Assembly: GCA_003222895.1 (NCBI GenBank) | Contig: QHXI01000060.1 | Coordinates: forward strand, 1 to 64,000 | Source: Acidobacteriota bacterium | GTDB taxonomy: Bacteria; Acidobacteriota; Blastocatellia; Pyrinomonadales; Pyrinomonadaceae | Length of the DNA stretch: 64,000 bases | Reading direction: 5' to 3' | Part shown: positions 37,216 to 46,529 of the stretch, in pieces | How the letters are laid out: every line of letters begins with the position of its first letter | Position numbering within the stretch: position 1 is the stretch's first letter | Notes under the pieces: model-generated | The model's database searches: none | Seen by the model: only the letters and a program-made list of their open reading frames with translations | What the model was told of the DNA's origin: nothing | Program-made: the position numbers and the translations under genes

Positions 37216-39153
37216 TTGACCACCGCGATAGAACAGACAGTCGAAACCTACGGGATCGAAAATTGGGGCGCTGGATACTTTGACGTTAATCGCAAAGGCA
37301 ATCTGATTGTGCGGCCAGCCGAAGGCGATCCGCGCTCAGCCGACGTGAAAGAAATCGTCGAAGACTTGGCGCGCCGCGGGATTACCGCGCCGATCCTGCT
37401 TCGCTTTCCCCAACTGGTTGCGGCACAAGTGCGCAAACTTCAGCGCGCGTTCAGTAAATCCATCCGCGAATTCGAATATCAGGGCGCGCATATGTGCGTC
37501 TATCCAATGAAGGTGAACCAGCAACGCTCAGTCGTCGAGGAATATTTGCGCGAAGGATCGCGATACGATTTTGGATTGGAAGCGGGATCGAAAGCTGAGT
37601 TGTACGCGGCGATGGCCCTGGAACAATCGGCTGACAGTTTGCTCGTGCTGAATGGTTTCAAAGATGAAGAGTTCATCCAGTTGGGTTTCGCCGGCGCGAA
37701 ATCGGGCAAGCGCGTTGTCATCGTTATTGAAAAATTGAGCGAGCTCGATCACATTTTGCGCATTGCTGAAACTCACGAAGGCAACTCGCCAATGATCGGC
37801 ATGCGCGTGAAGCTTTATTCGAAAGGTTCCGGTCGCTGGGAAAAATCCGGTGGCGAAGCGGCCAAGTTTGGCCTGACCACGACCGAGCTGCTCGAAGTCA
37901 TCAATCGTCTGAAAGAGGCGGGCCAAATCGATATGCTGCGTCTGCTGCACTTTCATATTGGATCGCAGCTCACGGACATCAAGCGCATCAAGAATGCGAT
38001 GAAAGAAGCCGCGCGCGTCTATGCGAAAGTCTATCAGATGAAAGCGCCGATCGAATTGCTCGACGTCGGAGGCGGCATGGCCGTCGATTACGACGGTTCC
38101 AAGACTGCGTTCGATTCATCGGCGAATTACAGCGCACAGGAGTTCGCCAACGACGTTATCTATACCATCAAGCAGGTTTGCGACGACGAGAATGTTCCGC
38201 ATCCGACGATCATTCAGGAATCAGGCCGTTTTCTTTCCGCCTATCACGCGATGTTGATCACGAATATCCTTGAAGAAATTGAAACGGTAGTCGAGGACAT
38301 CACGCCAATCGAAATCGACGAAGACGATCCGCAGGTGGTAATCGAGCTCGGGGATCTGCGCGAAACGATCACGATCAAGAATTATCGCGAGTACTATCAC
38401 GACGCGCTGGAACATCGCGAAGAGTTGTTCACGCTTTTCAATCTCGGATTGATTTCGCTGGAAGATCGCGCGAAGGGCGAAGTGCTTTTCTGGGATGTTT
38501 GCGAACGTGCCGACCGATACGCGCAGCAATCCAAGTACGTTCCTGAAGAGTTTGGCGATCTGCGAAAACTTCTCTGCGCAAAGTATCTCGCCAACTTCTC
38601 AGTTTTTCGATCGGTGCCGGACCACTGGGCGCTCGATCAGCTATTTCCGATTGTGCCGATTCAAAGCTTGAACAAAACACCGACTGAGTTCGCAACGCTG
38701 TGCGATATCACGTGCGATTCAGACGGCGTGGTCGACAAATTTGTCGACCTTCACGATGTGAAGCAGGTGCTCGAGCTGCACAAGCTTGATCCGGATGAGC
38801 CTTACTATCTCGCGTTCATGCTGGTCGGCGCTTATCAGGAAGCAATGGGAAACAACCACAACCTGTTTGGCGCACCGAACGAAGCCCATATTCACATCGA
38901 CGAAGAAGGTTATCTGATTAAGAAAGTGATCCGCGGCACGACCGTCGGCGAGGCCGCCGGACGGGCGCGCTACGAACGCGGTTTATTGCACGACGGCTTT
39001 CGCCGGCAGGTGACCCAGCGAATAAAAGATGGCGAACTCAGTGAAGCCGAAGGCTCCGAATTGGTAAATTTTTATGAATCGCGTTACGACGCCTACACCT
39101 ATATCGCGGTTAATGGTAACCAAGTGAAGGGTCGGCGTCGTCATGACTATTAA
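37216..39153 (+). CDS. speA: biosynthetic arginine decarboxylase
   Basis: The 645-residue protein matches the large SpeA-type arginine decarboxylase. Lys99 in VYPMKVNQQ carries PLP. LLHFHIGSQLTDI and LDVGGGMAVDYDGS are family motifs, and NNHNLFGAPNEAHI lies near the end. It makes agmatine and CO2 from arginine in the cytoplasm. The start appears to be TTG at 37216, after a modest GGGAGA site. With the agmatinase at 45624 it provides the arginine-to-putrescine route. It is followed by a deoxyhypusine-synthase-like gene. Confidence 0.96.
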   Translation: MTTAIEQTVETYGIENWGAGYFDVNRKGNLIVRPAEGDPRSADVKEIVEDLARRGITAPILLRFPQLVAAQVRKLQRAFSKSIREFEYQGAHMCVYPMKVNQQRSVVEEYLREGSRYDFGLEAGSKAELYAAMALEQSADSLLVLNGFKDEEFIQLGFAGAKSGKRVVIVIEKLSELDHILRIAETHEGNSPMIGMRVKLYSKGSGRWEKSGGEAAKFGLTTTELLEVINRLKEAGQIDMLRLLHFHIGSQLTDIKRIKNAMKEAARVYAKVYQMKAPIELLDVGGGMAVDYDGSKTAFDSSANYSAQEFANDVIYTIKQVCDDENVPHPTIIQESGRFLSAYHAMLITNILEEIETVVEDITPIEIDEDDPQVVIELGDLRETITIKNYREYYHDALEHREELFTLFNLGLISLEDRAKGEVLFWDVCERADRYAQQSKYVPEEFGDLRKLLCAKYLANFSVFRSVPDHWALDQLFPIVPIQSLNKTPTEFATLCDITCDSDGVVDKFVDLHDVKQVLELHKLDPDEPYYLAFMLVGAYQEAMGNNHNLFGAPNEAHIHIDEEGYLIKKVIRGTTVGEAAGRARYERGLLHDGFRRQVTQRIKDGELSEAEGSELVNFYESRYDAYTYIAVNGNQVKGRRRHDY

Positions 39154-39265
39154 TGATCAGTTTTTCTAAACCTGGAGATGTTGTTAAGAGTCGGGCTACT
39201 GCCTGACAGGTGGGCCGTTGCCCGCCGCTAAACGCGCCTGCGAAGAAAGAAGAAAGCGAATTCTT

Positions 39266-40327
39266 ATGGTGACACAACGCAAACCAAAGCCGAGCAAGTA
39301 CCTAACGATTCCAACCCGCCCGGTTCAAGTCGATCGCGATCGATCGGTGGCGGGGCTCTTGGAAAAGATGGAGGGCACAGGATTCGGCGGGCGGCAACTA
39401 GCGGAATCGCATCGCATCTGGCTCGACATGCTGGGCGACAACACGACGATTTTCATGGCCGCATCGGGCGCCTTGATCCCTGCGGGGATGCGCAGGCTGC
39501 TGGCCTACGTCGTCAAGAATCGTTTCGTCGATGTGCTGATTCTTTCCGGCTCGATGATCTTCCACGACCTGCATGAAACGCTCGGGCGTCATCATTTCCA
39601 GGCCCATCCGAACATGACTGATGCTGAACTCGAAGCCTCGCACATCAATCGCATGTGGGATTTGCTGGCGAGCGAAGAGGAATATCACGAAGCAGAAGAA
39701 TGGGTCGGCGGATTCGCGAGTCAGTTGGATCAATCGCGGCCCTACTCAACCCGAGAATTTCTTCATCTGCTCGGTCGCGAACTCGCGGAGATTGCCGCCG
39801 AGGACGGAGTGCTCACCGCAGCTTACAAATCACGCGTGCCTGTTTTTTGTCCCGGCATCATGGAGAGTGGCGTCGCTGTGGGCATCGGCGGTTCGCGTTT
39901 CGAGAAGAAGAACAACTTTCAGTTCGACATTGTGCAGGATGTTTTGGACATGGCCCAAATCGCGATTCGCGCGCGCGTGTCCGGCGTGATCAATATCGGC
40001 GGTGGCATCACCAAGAGTTTCCTGCGACAGACTGAAATGTCCGCGCACATTTTCAAACAGCAGGTGCACGGTCACAAGTACGCGATTCAAATCGCGGCCG
40101 ATGCGCCGCACCCCGGCGGCCGCTCGAGCGCCGTTGCCTTCGATGAATCGCTGGTGTACGGAAAACTCGGACGCGGCGCGCTGACCGCTTACGTGAATTG
40201 CGACGCCACGATCGCGCTGCCGATCATTATCACCGCGCTATCACAAACGGCAGCGAAATATATGAAGGGTCGACGCCGTCCGAACTTCACTTTTGGCGGC
40301 AAGGACTTGATCATAGACGTCCCGTAA
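39266..40327 (+). CDS. speY: deoxyhypusine synthase-like protein, probable homospermidine synthase
   Basis: Starting at the ATG at 39266 the protein has 353 residues; an in-frame start at 39218 would add 16. It belongs to the deoxyhypusine synthase family. The NAD-fold signature ILSGSMIFHDLHE is present, as are GVINIGGGITKS and the active-site region FDESLVYGKLGRGA, with the catalytic Lys at about residue 300. Bacteria lack eIF5A, the usual target. In Anabaena such a homologue makes homospermidine from putrescine. Between speA and speB the same role is likely here. Confidence 0.82.
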   Translation: MVTQRKPKPSKYLTIPTRPVQVDRDRSVAGLLEKMEGTGFGGRQLAESHRIWLDMLGDNTTIFMAASGALIPAGMRRLLAYVVKNRFVDVLILSGSMIFHDLHETLGRHHFQAHPNMTDAELEASHINRMWDLLASEEEYHEAEEWVGGFASQLDQSRPYSTREFLHLLGRELAEIAAEDGVLTAAYKSRVPVFCPGIMESGVAVGIGGSRFEKKNNFQFDIVQDVLDMAQIAIRARVSGVINIGGGITKSFLRQTEMSAHIFKQQVHGHKYAIQIAADAPHPGGRSSAVAFDESLVYGKLGRGALTAYVNCDATIALPIIITALSQTAAKYMKGRRRPNFTFGGKDLIIDVP

Positions 40328-40556: not shown

Positions 40557-41801
40557 ATGAGCGATCAACCATTTAGTGTTTATTATGCTTTGGATGGACC
40601 AGACCTCGACGGGCTGGTCGGCAGCGCGGGCATCTTGCGCTTCGACTGGCCTGAACGAAAGTTCTACATCAAGCATTTCGACGGAATTAGTTCAGGACAC
40701 AATCCTTCGCTGGCGCCGAACGGCAAGCTGGCGCTGCTCGGCAACTTCAGCCAGACGATCATGCTGCTGGACATCGAGGATGCAAACAACATTCGCGAAG
40801 TCGCGCGACAATCGACGATGTTCTTTGAGGAGTGCGGTTATCGCATGCGATCGAACACGCATCACCTCTGGTATCCGGACAGCGAAAGTTTCATCGGGGC
40901 CGTCGGCGATCATCTTTATCACTTTCGCGTTGACGACCTGAAAAATCCCGTGAACCTCGGTCCGCATTATTTAGAGAATGCTCACGAGTTGCGCTGGGAC
41001 GCTACTCATCGATACATCCTGATGGGGGACCTCGGACCAGAAAAACAAGACGTGCGTCAGGTGGGCGTCTTCGATCTGCAGGAGCCTGACCCGAAGAAGC
41101 GGGCCCGCAAGATCAAGGTGCAGAACAACGTCTGGCACTGCCGGGTTCATCCGACCAAGCCGGTCGGCTATGCGCTCACCTATTCACTGATTACCGACCA
41201 CGAAGACTGGGTGAACTGGTCGCCGGGTTACGTGCGCGAGTACATATACGAGATCGATCTTCCGGCAGCGAAAATCACCCGCACCTGGAGCAGCGCCGCC
41301 GAGTTTCCGGGTCACCTCAACTCAGACGTGGAAATCTACGACGACACCTTGTACATCGCGAGTGGCGGCAGCCATGGTGTGCTCGAAATTCCGCTCGATC
41401 GTTTCGCCGAGTTTCGTTTTCTCGAGTGCATCCCACGCTTTTCGACGCGCCTTTTTAGTCTGAACGATCAAATGCACACGCTGCTCGGCGCGATGTCGCG
41501 TAAAGCCAGCGTTACGAGCACGCACTACATGCTGCAAACTCTTCAGATTACCGGCTGGCGCATTCTGGACGGCATCTATGCCACGCGCGTTTCACCCGAT
41601 GGCAAGTACATCATCACGGGCAACCGCGGCTACAACACCATAGCCGTTTATGACCGCAAGACTTTTCGTAAAGTGTACGAAAAGTTGCTTCCATTTCGTA
41701 AGCAGGTTACCGGCCGCGGTGGCTACAATCATTATCAGCTTACGAATAGTTTCTTTGGTTATCACCTCGGAGTTCATCACAGCGAATTAATCGCGCGATA
41801 A
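40557..41801 (+). CDS. beta-propeller-like protein of unknown function
   Basis: The ATG at 40557 follows GGAGGCGTC and gives 414 residues without signal peptide. Repeating four-stranded units (for example RYILMGDLGPEK...QVGVFDL and YIASGGSHGVLEIPL, then GKYIITGNRGYNTIAVYDRKTF) suggest a six- or seven-bladed propeller. Histidines are frequent at loop positions (His48, His102-103, His143, and later WHCRVHP, GHLNSD, NHYQ and VHHSE). Metal binding is therefore possible but unproven. It follows speY and precedes the duplicated protein by 43 bases. No family name is recognised. Confidence 0.7.
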   Translation: MSDQPFSVYYALDGPDLDGLVGSAGILRFDWPERKFYIKHFDGISSGHNPSLAPNGKLALLGNFSQTIMLLDIEDANNIREVARQSTMFFEECGYRMRSNTHHLWYPDSESFIGAVGDHLYHFRVDDLKNPVNLGPHYLENAHELRWDATHRYILMGDLGPEKQDVRQVGVFDLQEPDPKKRARKIKVQNNVWHCRVHPTKPVGYALTYSLITDHEDWVNWSPGYVREYIYEIDLPAAKITRTWSSAAEFPGHLNSDVEIYDDTLYIASGGSHGVLEIPLDRFAEFRFLECIPRFSTRLFSLNDQMHTLLGAMSRKASVTSTHYMLQTLQITGWRILDGIYATRVSPDGKYIITGNRGYNTIAVYDRKTFRKVYEKLLPFRKQVTGRGGYNHYQLTNSFFGYHLGVHHSELIAR

Positions 41802-41844
41802 CGGTTACGCACGCGCTGGCGTGCCTGATGAAAGGAGTTTCGTT

Positions 41845-43677
41845 ATGTCATGGAATGCTTCCGGCGGCGCAGCAGGAGTGGACGCCACTCTGAAGACTTT
41901 GACTTGTCTGAATAATGCCAATCCGAATGACGAATTAGTCAAAGAGATCAAAGCGGATCTCTCAGTAGCGTCTTCGATCCTCGAAATGATCAAGGATTAC
42001 ATGGCGCTGCTCAAGGACAACTTCAATAACGATGCGCCGCCATTTCGAAAGCTCGCGAAGCTTTTTGAATTGGGTGAAACGTTCGACGCTCTGGATGGTC
42101 ATTACTATGGAGTCTGTCCCGGTCTTCGCACTGGCGACCTGCACGGCGTAGCTGCTGAATTCGGCAACCTGCTCGGATACGTTTGGAGTTCGGCAATCGT
42201 GGGCCACTGTCCCTGGGCTGGGAAAAGCTACTCTCCGATGAGCGACGAAGACCGGGCGAGGATTCTCGGCGATACTGTGCCCGCTGATGTGAAAGTCCTT
42301 CGCGGCATCAATCATTTCAATAAGATTGAAGGCGCTCCGGTCAACGTCGCCACAGTCGCTTTACTAAATTTCATGTGGCACTTGCAGAAAGCGACCGACG
42401 AAGAGAAAAGCCAGTACGGTTATGACTATAAGGGAGGCAACATTGCCTCGCATCGCGCGCCTTCGATTTATCCCGGCACGCCGCGCGAAGTATTTCGTTT
42501 GAACTATCGCTATCCCGACCTCGGTAATTACCCGCCGCTGAGTTATTTGATTGATGAGATGGTGCAAATCGCCGATGGCATGTTCCTGGGCCAGGCGATC
42601 TTCGCAACTACAAAATTCTTAGACCGATACGATCCAAAAGCTGACCCGGCAACTTACCACTACCAGAACTTCGGCTACTTTCTTTTGTTCGAGCCGTTTT
42701 GGAACGCCGAAGCTAAACGCCTGTTTCCGTTTTTGGAAATGCCGGATGTCGCAGTTCCGGCTGAAGTGCCGAAGGCTTCAGCTCCTGCGCCCGCGCCAAC
42801 TCCACCGCCAACGGACAAGTTTTCAACTTTGTCGTTAGCCGATCCGACCGATGGCGACGTCGATGCTGCCCGCCTCAGAGAAGTGCGCGCCGACATTAAG
42901 AACGCCGGTGACATCATGCGCACGCTGAAATCCTATTCGGATATTCTGACGGCTGAGCACAAAACTGTCTCGCCGACATTCGACAAACTGCACACGCTTT
43001 TCAATGCAGGCATCGCGCCCCAAACGATGAATGGTTTCTATCGCGGCGCTTTGATTTCATGGCAAAGCCAGGGATTACTCGCGCCGTTTGAGGAAAACGC
43101 AATTAGTGTCGCGTGGCAGGCGTCGCGTTTCTTCTCGCCATGGACGGGAAAGAAATTCAATCCCATCGACGAAGCGGAACTAGCCAAATGGACTGAAGGC
43201 GGCGAGTCGATGGGCTCAGACCCGGCATATAACTGTTCGAACACAGTTGCCTTTCGCACGCTCAAAGAAAAGTTCACGCGCGAAGTTTCGAAGCTGGCCG
43301 GTGTGCGCATGGAAGACGCAACGCCCGAAGAGAAACAGAAGTACGGTTATGACGCGCACACTTTTTTCTTCATCGGGCGGCCCAACAAAACCAGCATGCT
43401 GCCAGAGAACAAGGGCAAAAAGATCTACCAATTCAATTATCGCTGGAAGCCTCTAAAGAATATTCCGCCGGATTGCTTTTGCATCGACGAGATTGCGCAG
43501 ATCGCTGAAGGTCTCTATCTCGGTCAATTGATTTACGCGACTGATTGGCTGAAGCCGTGGGATCCAAACACCCCGATCTCAGAATATAAGTACAAGCTGT
43601 TCGGCTACTTCCTCTTGATGGATGAGGAATGGCATCAAAGACGGCTGCGGATCGGATTCGATTTGCAGGACATTTGA
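41845..43677 (+). CDS. tandemly duplicated two-domain protein of unknown family
   Basis: AAAGGAG before the ATG at 41845 gives 610 residues. The protein is two related halves (about 30-300 and 340-610) joined by a Pro/Ala linker (308-325). Matching motifs include PWAGK at 123-127 and PWTGK at 432-436, then YGYD at 191 and 501. The segment IDEMVQIADGMFLGQAIFAT (236-255) matches IDEIAQIAEGLYLGQLIYAT (547-566), and FGYFLL (276-281) matches 586-591. There is no signal peptide or membrane helix, so it is likely cytoplasmic. I do not recognise the fold. It lies between a propeller-like protein and a GMC oxidoreductase. Confidence 0.75.
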   Translation: MSWNASGGAAGVDATLKTLTCLNNANPNDELVKEIKADLSVASSILEMIKDYMALLKDNFNNDAPPFRKLAKLFELGETFDALDGHYYGVCPGLRTGDLHGVAAEFGNLLGYVWSSAIVGHCPWAGKSYSPMSDEDRARILGDTVPADVKVLRGINHFNKIEGAPVNVATVALLNFMWHLQKATDEEKSQYGYDYKGGNIASHRAPSIYPGTPREVFRLNYRYPDLGNYPPLSYLIDEMVQIADGMFLGQAIFATTKFLDRYDPKADPATYHYQNFGYFLLFEPFWNAEAKRLFPFLEMPDVAVPAEVPKASAPAPAPTPPPTDKFSTLSLADPTDGDVDAARLREVRADIKNAGDIMRTLKSYSDILTAEHKTVSPTFDKLHTLFNAGIAPQTMNGFYRGALISWQSQGLLAPFEENAISVAWQASRFFSPWTGKKFNPIDEAELAKWTEGGESMGSDPAYNCSNTVAFRTLKEKFTREVSKLAGVRMEDATPEEKQKYGYDAHTFFFIGRPNKTSMLPENKGKKIYQFNYRWKPLKNIPPDCFCIDEIAQIAEGLYLGQLIYATDWLKPWDPNTPISEYKYKLFGYFLLMDEEWHQRRLRIGFDLQDI

Positions 43678-43691
43678 GGCCTTGGCTTTTT

Positions 43692-43781
43692 CCCCTCTCC
43701 CCCTGGGAGAGGAGCCCGGGGTGAGGGGCGAAGCTTCAGCGCGACAAGCCCTCACCCAGCCCTCTCCCAGTGGGAGAGGGC
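43692..43781. repeat. CCCTCTCCC/GGGAGAGGG palindromic repeat
   Basis: CCCCTCTCCCCCTGGGAGAGG (from 43692) and CCTCTCCCAGTGGGAGAGG (43761-43779) are each palindromic. GGGGTGAGGG and CCCTCACCC form inner complementary arms. This word is a widespread dispersed repeat in many bacterial genomes. Here it separates the duplicated gene from the GMC oxidoreductase gene. Confidence 0.75.
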
Positions 43782-43805: not shown

Positions 43806-45446
43806 ATGAAAGACATTTACGACGTGGTCGTCATCGGCTCGGGTTTCGGCGGAGCGATCAATGCTTGCCGGCTCGCACAAGCGGGCCGATCTGTTTGCAT
43901 CCTCGAGCGTGGCAAGCGTTGGGGCAAAAAAGATTTTCCGCGCACCACGGGCCAGGTCGCGCGCTCGTTTTGGAATTACAAAGATCTCGGGTTGCTCGAC
44001 TATCGCGCGTTCGAAAACATCGACGTGCTGCAGGCGAGCGGCGTCGGCGGCGGCTCGCTCGTCTACTTCAACGTCCACATTCGCACCCCCAAAGAAATCT
44101 TTGAAAATCCGCGTTGGCCCAAAGGCGTCAAGCGCGACATACTAAATCCTTTCTACGACAAGGCTCGTGACATGTTGGAAGCGCGTCAACTGACGCCGCC
44201 CGCCGATCGCGACATGCCGCCCCGCACAGAAGCGTTCATCGCCGCGGCGCAAAATGCCGGACGCAAACCCGAACTGATGGAGATCTGTGTTTACACGGGT
44301 CCAGAAAAAGTGAATCGCCAGGGCGTCGTGCAGGACGGTTGCGTTTACTGCGGCAACTGCATGCTGGGCTGTCACGTTCACGCGAAGAACACGCTCGACC
44401 TGAATTACATCCCGCTCGCCGAACAAAATGGCGCCGAAGTTTATCCGCTGCATCAGGTCGAAAAAATCGAGCCCATCGATCCAGTTGAAGTGAACGGCTA
44501 TCGTGTTCACTTCCGCCAATTCGACCTCGAGACCGCTGAGTCGCAGCCGCTCACGGTCGATGGCGCCAGATTCGATCGGGGCGCCAAGCCCGACCCCACC
44601 TCTCAACCTGGATCGGTCATTGGACGAAAAGTAATTATCTCTGCCGGTTCGTTGGGCTCTACTGAAATCCTTTTGCGCTGTCGCGATCTCCACGAGACCC
44701 TGCCAAATCTCAGTCCGGCGCTCGGCACAAAGTTTTCTGGTAACGGCGACTTCCTTTTGGCCGGGTCGCTCGAATCGAATCGCGAAGTCGATCCGGGCTC
44801 CGGACCAAGCATCACCGCGGCCATCGACGCTTCGACGGCAAACAACAGAATCATGATTCAGGATCTGGGTTTTCCAGATCCATTTCTCTGGTACCTGGAA
44901 AGCGCCTTGCCGGTACCCCGACGTTTGAAGAATCTCGGATTGTTTTTCCGCAAATACTTGATGCGAACGCTCGGACTCGATCATGGTTCGGCTTTTACCG
45001 ATGGCGCCGACAAATTATTTAAGGGAGGCGTGACGCCAAAGTTTCTGCCTTTTCTCGGCATGGGAACGGACGCCGCGGACGGCTGCATGCAATTGTCGGA
45101 AGGCAACATTGAAATCGATTGGAATGTTCGCCGGAGCCGCGCGATGTTCGACGAGATGGAAGCAGCGTTGAAGGAATTGAGCAAAGGAATCGGCGGCGAG
45201 TACATGCCGAGCGTGCTGTGGGGCTGGCCCTGGCGAAAGCTTCTGACCGCGCATCCGCTCGGCGGCTGCACGATGTCCGACAACCCAAAAGAAGGCGTGG
45301 TAAACGAGTTCGGCGAGGTTTGGAACTATCCCAATCTTTACGTTTCCGACGGATCGATCATTCCGACGGCGCTGTCAGTAAATCCTTCGGCGACGATCAG
45401 CGCCTTGTCGGAACGAATTGCGGATTACATCGTGAGTTCCCAATGA
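43806..45446 (+). CDS. GMC family oxidoreductase, ChoD-like
   Basis: The ATG at 43806 gives 546 residues and places the FAD-binding GSGFGG (11-16) right at the N-terminus; upstream in-frame sequence comes from a repeat. A CxxCxxCxxxC set (Cys179, 182, 185, 189) followed by AKNTLDLNYI is characteristic of the ChoD-type cholesterol-oxidase-like branch. The C-terminal HPLGGCTMSDNPKEGV and NPSATISALSERIA segments complete the GMC fold. It likely oxidises a hydrophobic alcohol with FAD. It has no signal peptide. It is flanked by a protein of unknown family and agmatinase; the true substrate is unknown. Confidence 0.87.
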   Translation: MKDIYDVVVIGSGFGGAINACRLAQAGRSVCILERGKRWGKKDFPRTTGQVARSFWNYKDLGLLDYRAFENIDVLQASGVGGGSLVYFNVHIRTPKEIFENPRWPKGVKRDILNPFYDKARDMLEARQLTPPADRDMPPRTEAFIAAAQNAGRKPELMEICVYTGPEKVNRQGVVQDGCVYCGNCMLGCHVHAKNTLDLNYIPLAEQNGAEVYPLHQVEKIEPIDPVEVNGYRVHFRQFDLETAESQPLTVDGARFDRGAKPDPTSQPGSVIGRKVIISAGSLGSTEILLRCRDLHETLPNLSPALGTKFSGNGDFLLAGSLESNREVDPGSGPSITAAIDASTANNRIMIQDLGFPDPFLWYLESALPVPRRLKNLGLFFRKYLMRTLGLDHGSAFTDGADKLFKGGVTPKFLPFLGMGTDAADGCMQLSEGNIEIDWNVRRSRAMFDEMEAALKELSKGIGGEYMPSVLWGWPWRKLLTAHPLGGCTMSDNPKEGVVNEFGEVWNYPNLYVSDGSIIPTALSVNPSATISALSERIADYIVSSQ

Positions 45447-45623: not shown

Positions 45624-46529
45624 ATGAGTGAATCACAGTCGCTTCCGATGAACTTCGGCGGAATAGCCGAAGAAGAGTTCTCGAATTTCGACCGGGCGCG
45701 CATTCTGGTCTGGCCGATCAGTTATGAAGGAACCGTCTCGTACGGCGGTGGCACGGGCAAAGGCGCGGCCGCGATCATCGACGCCTCGCGCAACATGGAG
45801 TTGTATGACGAAGAGACTGACGCCGAAGTTTATAAGCTCGGTATTCACACGCTCGCCGAATCCCCTTCGATCGATCCGCCGGAACGAATGATGAACTCGC
45901 TTTATGATCTAGCAAAGGAGCTTACGTCCAGCGGAAAATTCGTCACGATGATCGGCGGCGAGCATTCGGTCAGCGCTCCGGTGATTCGCGCGCACGCGGA
46001 GAAACATGCGAACTTGTCCGTGCTTCAAATCGATGCGCACGCGGATTTGCGCGACAGCTATGACGGCACGCCTTACTCGCACGCTTCGATCATGGCGCGC
46101 GTCGTCAAAGATCTGCGCATTCCCGCAGTGCAAGTCGGCATTCGGTCGATCTCTGTCGATGAAGCGCGGATTATCGATGATCTGCCGACGCGAATCTTTT
46201 GGGCCAAAGACATCGCCGGGCGCGACGATTGGTGGGACGATGCTATCGAAGGCCTGACTGAGAATGTCTATCTCACGATCGACATCGACGGACTTGACCC
46301 TTCACTCGTGTCGGCAACCGGAACGCCGGAGCCGGGCGGCCTCGGTTGGTACGAGACGGTGGGCTTGATTCGTACACTCGCTCGGAGACGCAACGTCGTG
46401 GGAATGGATTTGACTGAGTATTCGCACGTTGAGGGACAGAACGCTTCAGCGTTTCTCTGCGCGAAGTTGATCTACAAGACGCTCGGGTTTGTGTTTGAGA
46501 AAGAGACTGAGCGCGTCCGAAACGTCTGA
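45624..46529 (+). CDS. speB: agmatinase
   Basis: The 301-residue protein is a ureohydrolase with the manganese motifs GGEHSVSA, DAHADLRDSY and DIDGLDPS, and typical length. It hydrolyses agmatine to putrescine and urea in the cytoplasm. Arginase or guanidinobutyrase activity cannot be excluded by motif alone, but speA in the same cluster argues for agmatinase. It closes the polyamine cluster on the plus strand. A short dispersed repeat lies before it and another after it. Confidence 0.9.
   Translation: MSESQSLPMNFGGIAEEEFSNFDRARILVWPISYEGTVSYGGGTGKGAAAIIDASRNMELYDEETDAEVYKLGIHTLAESPSIDPPERMMNSLYDLAKELTSSGKFVTMIGGEHSVSAPVIRAHAEKHANLSVLQIDAHADLRDSYDGTPYSHASIMARVVKDLRIPAVQVGIRSISVDEARIIDDLPTRIFWAKDIAGRDDWWDDAIEGLTENVYLTIDIDGLDPSLVSATGTPEPGGLGWYETVGLIRTLARRRNVVGMDLTEYSHVEGQNASAFLCAKLIYKTLGFVFEKETERVRNV

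Follow-up and report, generated by a model that had tools for sequence, protein, structure and literature searches.

The described proteins closest to the one analysed here are those of the GXWXG/DUF4334 family and, at the level of beta-barrel architecture, members of the lipocalin/calycin superfamily such as lipocalin 2, lipocalin-type prostaglandin D synthase, a tick histamine-binding protein and the cockroach lipid-binding protein 4nyq. The glycyl radical enzymes (GREs) encoded near many of its relatives are most readily compared with the PFL2/dehydratase type, which comprises choline TMA-lyase, hydroxyproline dehydratase, glycerol dehydratase and the A. fulgidus protein 2f3o. No characterised GRE is known to have a lipid-binding barrel protein or an SCP2-like carrier as its partner, and titles and abstracts of the open-licence literature yielded no description of a GRE with a twin-barrel/SCP2-like system.

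We analysed a 64,000-nucleotide stretch of an Acidobacteriota genome (contig QHXI01000060.1, hereafter the window), which encodes a protein composed of two predicted barrels, here called the twin barrel:

41845..43677, + strand: tandem calycin-like protein, 610 aa (open reading frame with AGGAG upstream; internal duplication; AlphaFold2 model)
41899..42744, + strand: predicted N-terminal barrel domain, the N-type half (alignment of the halves, tree, model)
42745..42813 (about), + strand: Pro/Ala linker between the barrels (sequence; pLDDT <50 at residues 306-322)
42814..43674, + strand: predicted C-terminal barrel domain, the C-type half, with GxYxG, PWTGK, NYR, IDE and FGYFLL (domain-alone model; 4mve Z 9.9)

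The frame is open from a GTG at 41821 and stops at 43677, and the start codon is likely the ATG at 41845, before which AGGAG lies at 41833-41837. The initial annotation described a tandem duplication at 41845-43677 with a Pro/Ala linker joining the two copies, and our computations confirmed both, with coordinates in agreement. BLASTP aligns the two halves with E 3e-34, at 29% identity across 287 columns; their local alignment scores 294, while the best of 500 shuffles reached 54. The linker is real, and its low-confidence prediction is as expected of a flexible piece. That no described family has this pattern likewise holds at the sequence level, as we found no credible match for the twin-barrel protein in Pfam, NCBIfam, PHROGs, PADLOC or PDB sequences, and PDB sequence searches with profiles of 5 and of 44 halves returned chance matches only. 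A phage or defence role was considered for the protein and rejected, given the lack of a credible match in PHROGs and PADLOC.

The fold, previously called unknown, is in our models a familiar one. AlphaFold2 gave a pLDDT of 83.2 for the full-length protein, and for the C-half alone, modelled with 44 sequences, a pLDDT of 92.5 and a pTM of 0.91, with helices followed by a barrel. Each half is thus predicted to be a lipocalin/calycin-like beta-barrel, closest to the GXWXG/DUF4334 protein Tcur_1030 (4mve), which VIA-align placed at the top for the full-length and C-half models alike (Z 10.1 and 9.9, rmsd 3.0-3.1, 141/148 residues). The rows below 4mve scored Z 6-7, about 3 Z units lower, and were mostly lipocalin-like barrels, with avidins also present. 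Foldseek returned zero matches at E <1e-3 for the full-length and single-domain models, and 4mve was absent among the 50 matches it listed for the single domain. The likeness to the lipocalin/calycin superfamily lies in beta-barrel architecture at Z 5-7 (the lipocalins themselves at Z 5-6 for the single domain), values typical of a merely common arrangement, and we found no sequence similarity between its members and the twin barrel.

The relationship to GXWXG/DUF4334 appears closer. The membership of Tcur_1030 in this family is shown, as far as sequence comparison goes, by a bridging myxococcal protein that matches both PF14232 (1.3e-8) and 4mve (2.1e-5). In the predicted models the twin-barrel halves have the fold of 4mve, superposing over 141/148 residues at Z about 10, and the order of motifs is similar: LF, G-x-aromatic-x-G, W-x-G-K, a tyrosine motif (YD or NYR) and I-D. 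In contrast, identity is 14%, the twin-barrel domain is much longer and tandem duplicated, its gene neighbours are others, and none of the 44 half-domains matched PF14231 or PF14232 up to E 10. Comparison with DUF4334 by hhalign placed GxYxG and WxGK in register with E 0.0025 in one comparison, at a weak probability of 12%, against E 0.89 for an unrelated pair. A search of the window's phylum for GXWXG had no match, nor a responding control, and carries no weight here. Sequence homology to GXWXG/DUF4334 is therefore only suggestive, and we regard the twin barrel as a probable distant relative with the fold in common rather than as a member of that family.

Conservation among the halves bears on what the barrels may do. 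The motifs PWxGK, YGYD, NYR, IDE..QIA.G..LGQ and FGYFLL are shared by the two halves and follow one common order, as the initial annotation had it, although its wording 'FxxNYR' and 'IAT' was inexact: the two halves read FRLNYR and YQFNYR, and IFAT and IYAT, respectively. YGYD is confined to close relatives. Invariant across the 44 half-domains (C-half query numbering) are F64, G75, G79, W111, G113, N144, S195, Y210, R211, P220, E227, G238, Y261, F264, G265, F267 and L269, with D226 and K114 nearly so. The same annotation proposed a ligand- or metal-binding core, in which a metal would be held by the IDE motif. Its ligand-binding part is plausible. The metal part draws on the invariance of E227 and near-invariance of D226, yet neither His nor Cys occupies any invariant or near-invariant position among the 44 halves, and the two acidic residues sit on the strand that follows the one ending in NYR, which makes a salt bridge or a polar ligand contact equally likely; we consider a metal site very improbable. 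Alternatively, the barrels may have a catalytic role of their own, like that of an isomerase, cyclase or hydrolase, at a step preceding or following that of the GRE or GMC oxidoreductase in one pathway. N144, Y210, R211, E227, D226 and K114 together exceed the needs of a passive binder, and the barrel enzymes OlmO, a spirocyclase, and NanoLuc are among the structural matches. These matches are weak, however (Z about 5 or less), we recognised no known catalytic set among the conserved residues, and retention of the same residues in both halves is also consistent with a structural salt bridge, which leaves catalysis by the barrels a rather unlikely reading.

Orthologues within the genus are 81-92% identical, and 396 sampled genomes of the phylum contained no further family member; thus the twin barrel is rare in the phylum. 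Across 84,980 species genomes, many of them metagenome-assembled records, a scan with two peptide patterns recovered at least 45 loci, which we treat as a sample. The matches listed come from Acidobacteria, Planctomycetes, deltaproteobacterial groups, Myxococcota, Nitrospirae, Nitrospinota and others, and their predominant form is the fused protein of about 600 aa; one subfamily has large inserts and reaches about 820 aa. Single-domain relatives, whose existence had been left as a point to check, were found as lone N-type halves at two Desulfobacteria loci. At a further locus (L023) the N-type and C-type halves are separate adjacent genes, which supports the earlier view of the protein as a pseudo-dimer made by fusion. 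In our tree, a branch with 100/100 support parts the C-halves from the N-halves and single domains, and from this full support it follows that one old duplication was inherited and that it predates the spread of the family. The architectures also bear on another reading, in which the protein is an assembly or envelope factor without a lipid role, a scaffold that docks the GRE or GMC oxidoreductase at the membrane. Lipoprotein-type starts, seen by inspection at L034 and at the lone N-type half of L036, the additional transthyretin-like N-domain of some relatives and a membrane protein gene nearby in close relatives would fit such a scaffold. The window protein, however, has no signal peptide by inspection, and the conserved residues are those of the barrel motifs, and we judge this reading improbable.

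We found a strong association between the family and GREs. PF02901 was detected in 41 of the 45 listed relative genomes, compared with a GRE frequency of 25% in a sample of 199 genomes from the window's phylum. In 32 of the 45 a GRE lies within 10 kb of the twin-barrel gene, where about 0.4 would be expected; it lies within 5 kb in 30 and within 500 bases in 10. Pfam analysis of the genes adjoining the family at five loci (L019, L022, L029, L031 and L034) identified a GRE and/or its activase. The remaining nine GRE-bearing genomes carry the enzyme's gene on a different contig or at a long distance, and no GRE was found in four of the 45, which are the window's close kin, or in the window's own genome; the partnership is therefore not obligatory. 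PFL-like and Gly_radical domains, together with a catalytic Cys and the glycyl motif, identify the neighbouring enzymes as GREs. GC(V/I)E and R(V/I)(S/A)GY are retained in every one of the 12 operon GREs examined, which are 35-89% identical to the first. They resemble the PFL2/dehydratase type in these motifs and domains and in having a dedicated activase. They differ from it in adjoining a barrel protein and, at some loci, an SCP2-like protein, and in that the three copies tested fell under every NCBIfam equivalog cut-off. A 991-aa divergent GRE immediately adjoins the twin-barrel gene at L031 (8925-11900), and a 1035-aa open frame of the same kind lies about 8 kb from the twin-barrel gene in genome G461.

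Other genes recur near the family. Against the PF02036 (SCP2) cut-off of 21.3 bits, the small gene product next to the GRE scores higher at L036 (22.0-22.8), equal at L041 and lower at L023 (19.9) and L038 (17.3); the small neighbour proteins of L034 and L019 gave no SCP2 match. The proximity of the oxygen-sensitive GREs points to an undescribed pathway, probably one acting on lipids. A calcineurin-like phosphoesterase gene is nearby in both cassette settings (L011, L016, L013, L029 and L005). Adjoining the twin-barrel gene at L034 (5894-6910) is a DUF6765 protein (5.9e-67), by eye like zinc-dependent phospholipase C, and at L022 (9039-10301) a radical SAM protein with weak matches to B12-type methylases only.

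The window itself carries a cassette of the GRE-free type, in the order arginine decarboxylase, deoxyhypusine-synthase-like protein, propeller, twin barrel, GMC oxidoreductase and agmatinase, with these additional features:

40557..41801, + strand: beta-propeller-like protein, a conserved neighbour in the GRE-free cassette type (weak Lactonase/WD40 matches)
43693..43780, no strand: paired palindromes CCCTCTCCC..GGGAGAGGG (4 pattern matches, 0 expected)
43806..45446, + strand: GMC oxidoreductase, cholesterol-oxidase-like (GMC_oxred_C 8.5e-18; CholsOxChoxAB 1.4e-66, below its equivalog cut-off)

The arginine decarboxylase and deoxyhypusine-synthase-like genes (37216-40327) and the agmatinase gene (45624-46529) flank the cassette, and L011 has size-matched ORFs in that order. 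The window's deoxyhypusine-synthase-like protein does not reach any NCBIfam equivalog cut-off. The propeller occurs in eight of the 45 listed genomes with the family, one copy being a remnant; the window's kin and two Terriglobia have it on the same contig or on a matching fragment. That remnant, interrupted by a stop codon, lies just upstream of the twin-barrel gene of a Phycisphaerales genome (L013; G430:C1:4178952-4179164). GMC copies at least 59% identical to the window's were found in only six relative genomes. In the two Terriglobia, copies of the propeller and the GMC oxidoreductase with at least 55% identity flank the twin-barrel gene, and GREs are on other contigs. The GMC oxidoreductase is likely the redox enzyme of the window's cassette. 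The gap at 43693..43780 is the site where close relatives (L002, L003, L005 and L011) have the gene for a membrane protein of about 210 aa; at L011 this gene and a metallophosphatase gene lie between the twin barrel and a GMC-sized ORF. A search, run without a positive control, did not find the relatives' membrane gene in the window's genome, and the palindromes are possibly a repeat element marking a loss.

These observations suggest to us, at about even chances, that the fused pair of calycin barrels binds a lipid-like molecule and presents or carries it for a lipid-modifying enzyme, a GRE in most relatives and the GMC oxidoreductase in the window's family. The duplication, the predicted fold, the association of genes and the GRE motifs come from computation; the lipid nature of the ligand, the joint action of protein and enzyme and the replacement of GRE by GMC are what we infer. 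A lipid-like ligand is the most economical guess because the predicted fold resembles that of hydrophobic-ligand binders, an SCP2-like protein is a neighbour at some loci, and the GMC oxidoreductase is cholesterol-oxidase-like. The lipoprotein-type starts of L034 and L036 also speak for the overall reading. Each barrel would hold a hydrophobic molecule in its predicted cavity, and the flexibly linked pair may accommodate a pair of chains from the same molecule, or a substrate along with its product. In most relatives, largely of anaerobic lineages, this enzyme would be a GRE of an uncharacterised Cys-X-Glu group, whose gene is accompanied by those for its radical-SAM activase and for a small carrier of the SCP2-like kind. 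The genes alongside the binder in the window's family are those of the propeller and the GMC flavo-oxidoreductase, and the latter would carry out the redox reaction under aerobic conditions, not necessarily on the substrate of the GRE.

More tentatively, GRE, activase, SCP2-like carrier and twin calycin binder may form an undescribed lipid-modification pathway in which some soil Acidobacteria swapped the GRE for a flavin oxidoreductase and kept the binder, a scenario to which we give less credence than to lipid binding itself. For an orphan GRE group spread over several phyla, a recurrent binder partner would offer a concrete handle on the GRE substrate, and the window's relatives, with their cassette, would provide a natural case for asking whether flavin chemistry can stand in for radical chemistry with the binding protein retained.
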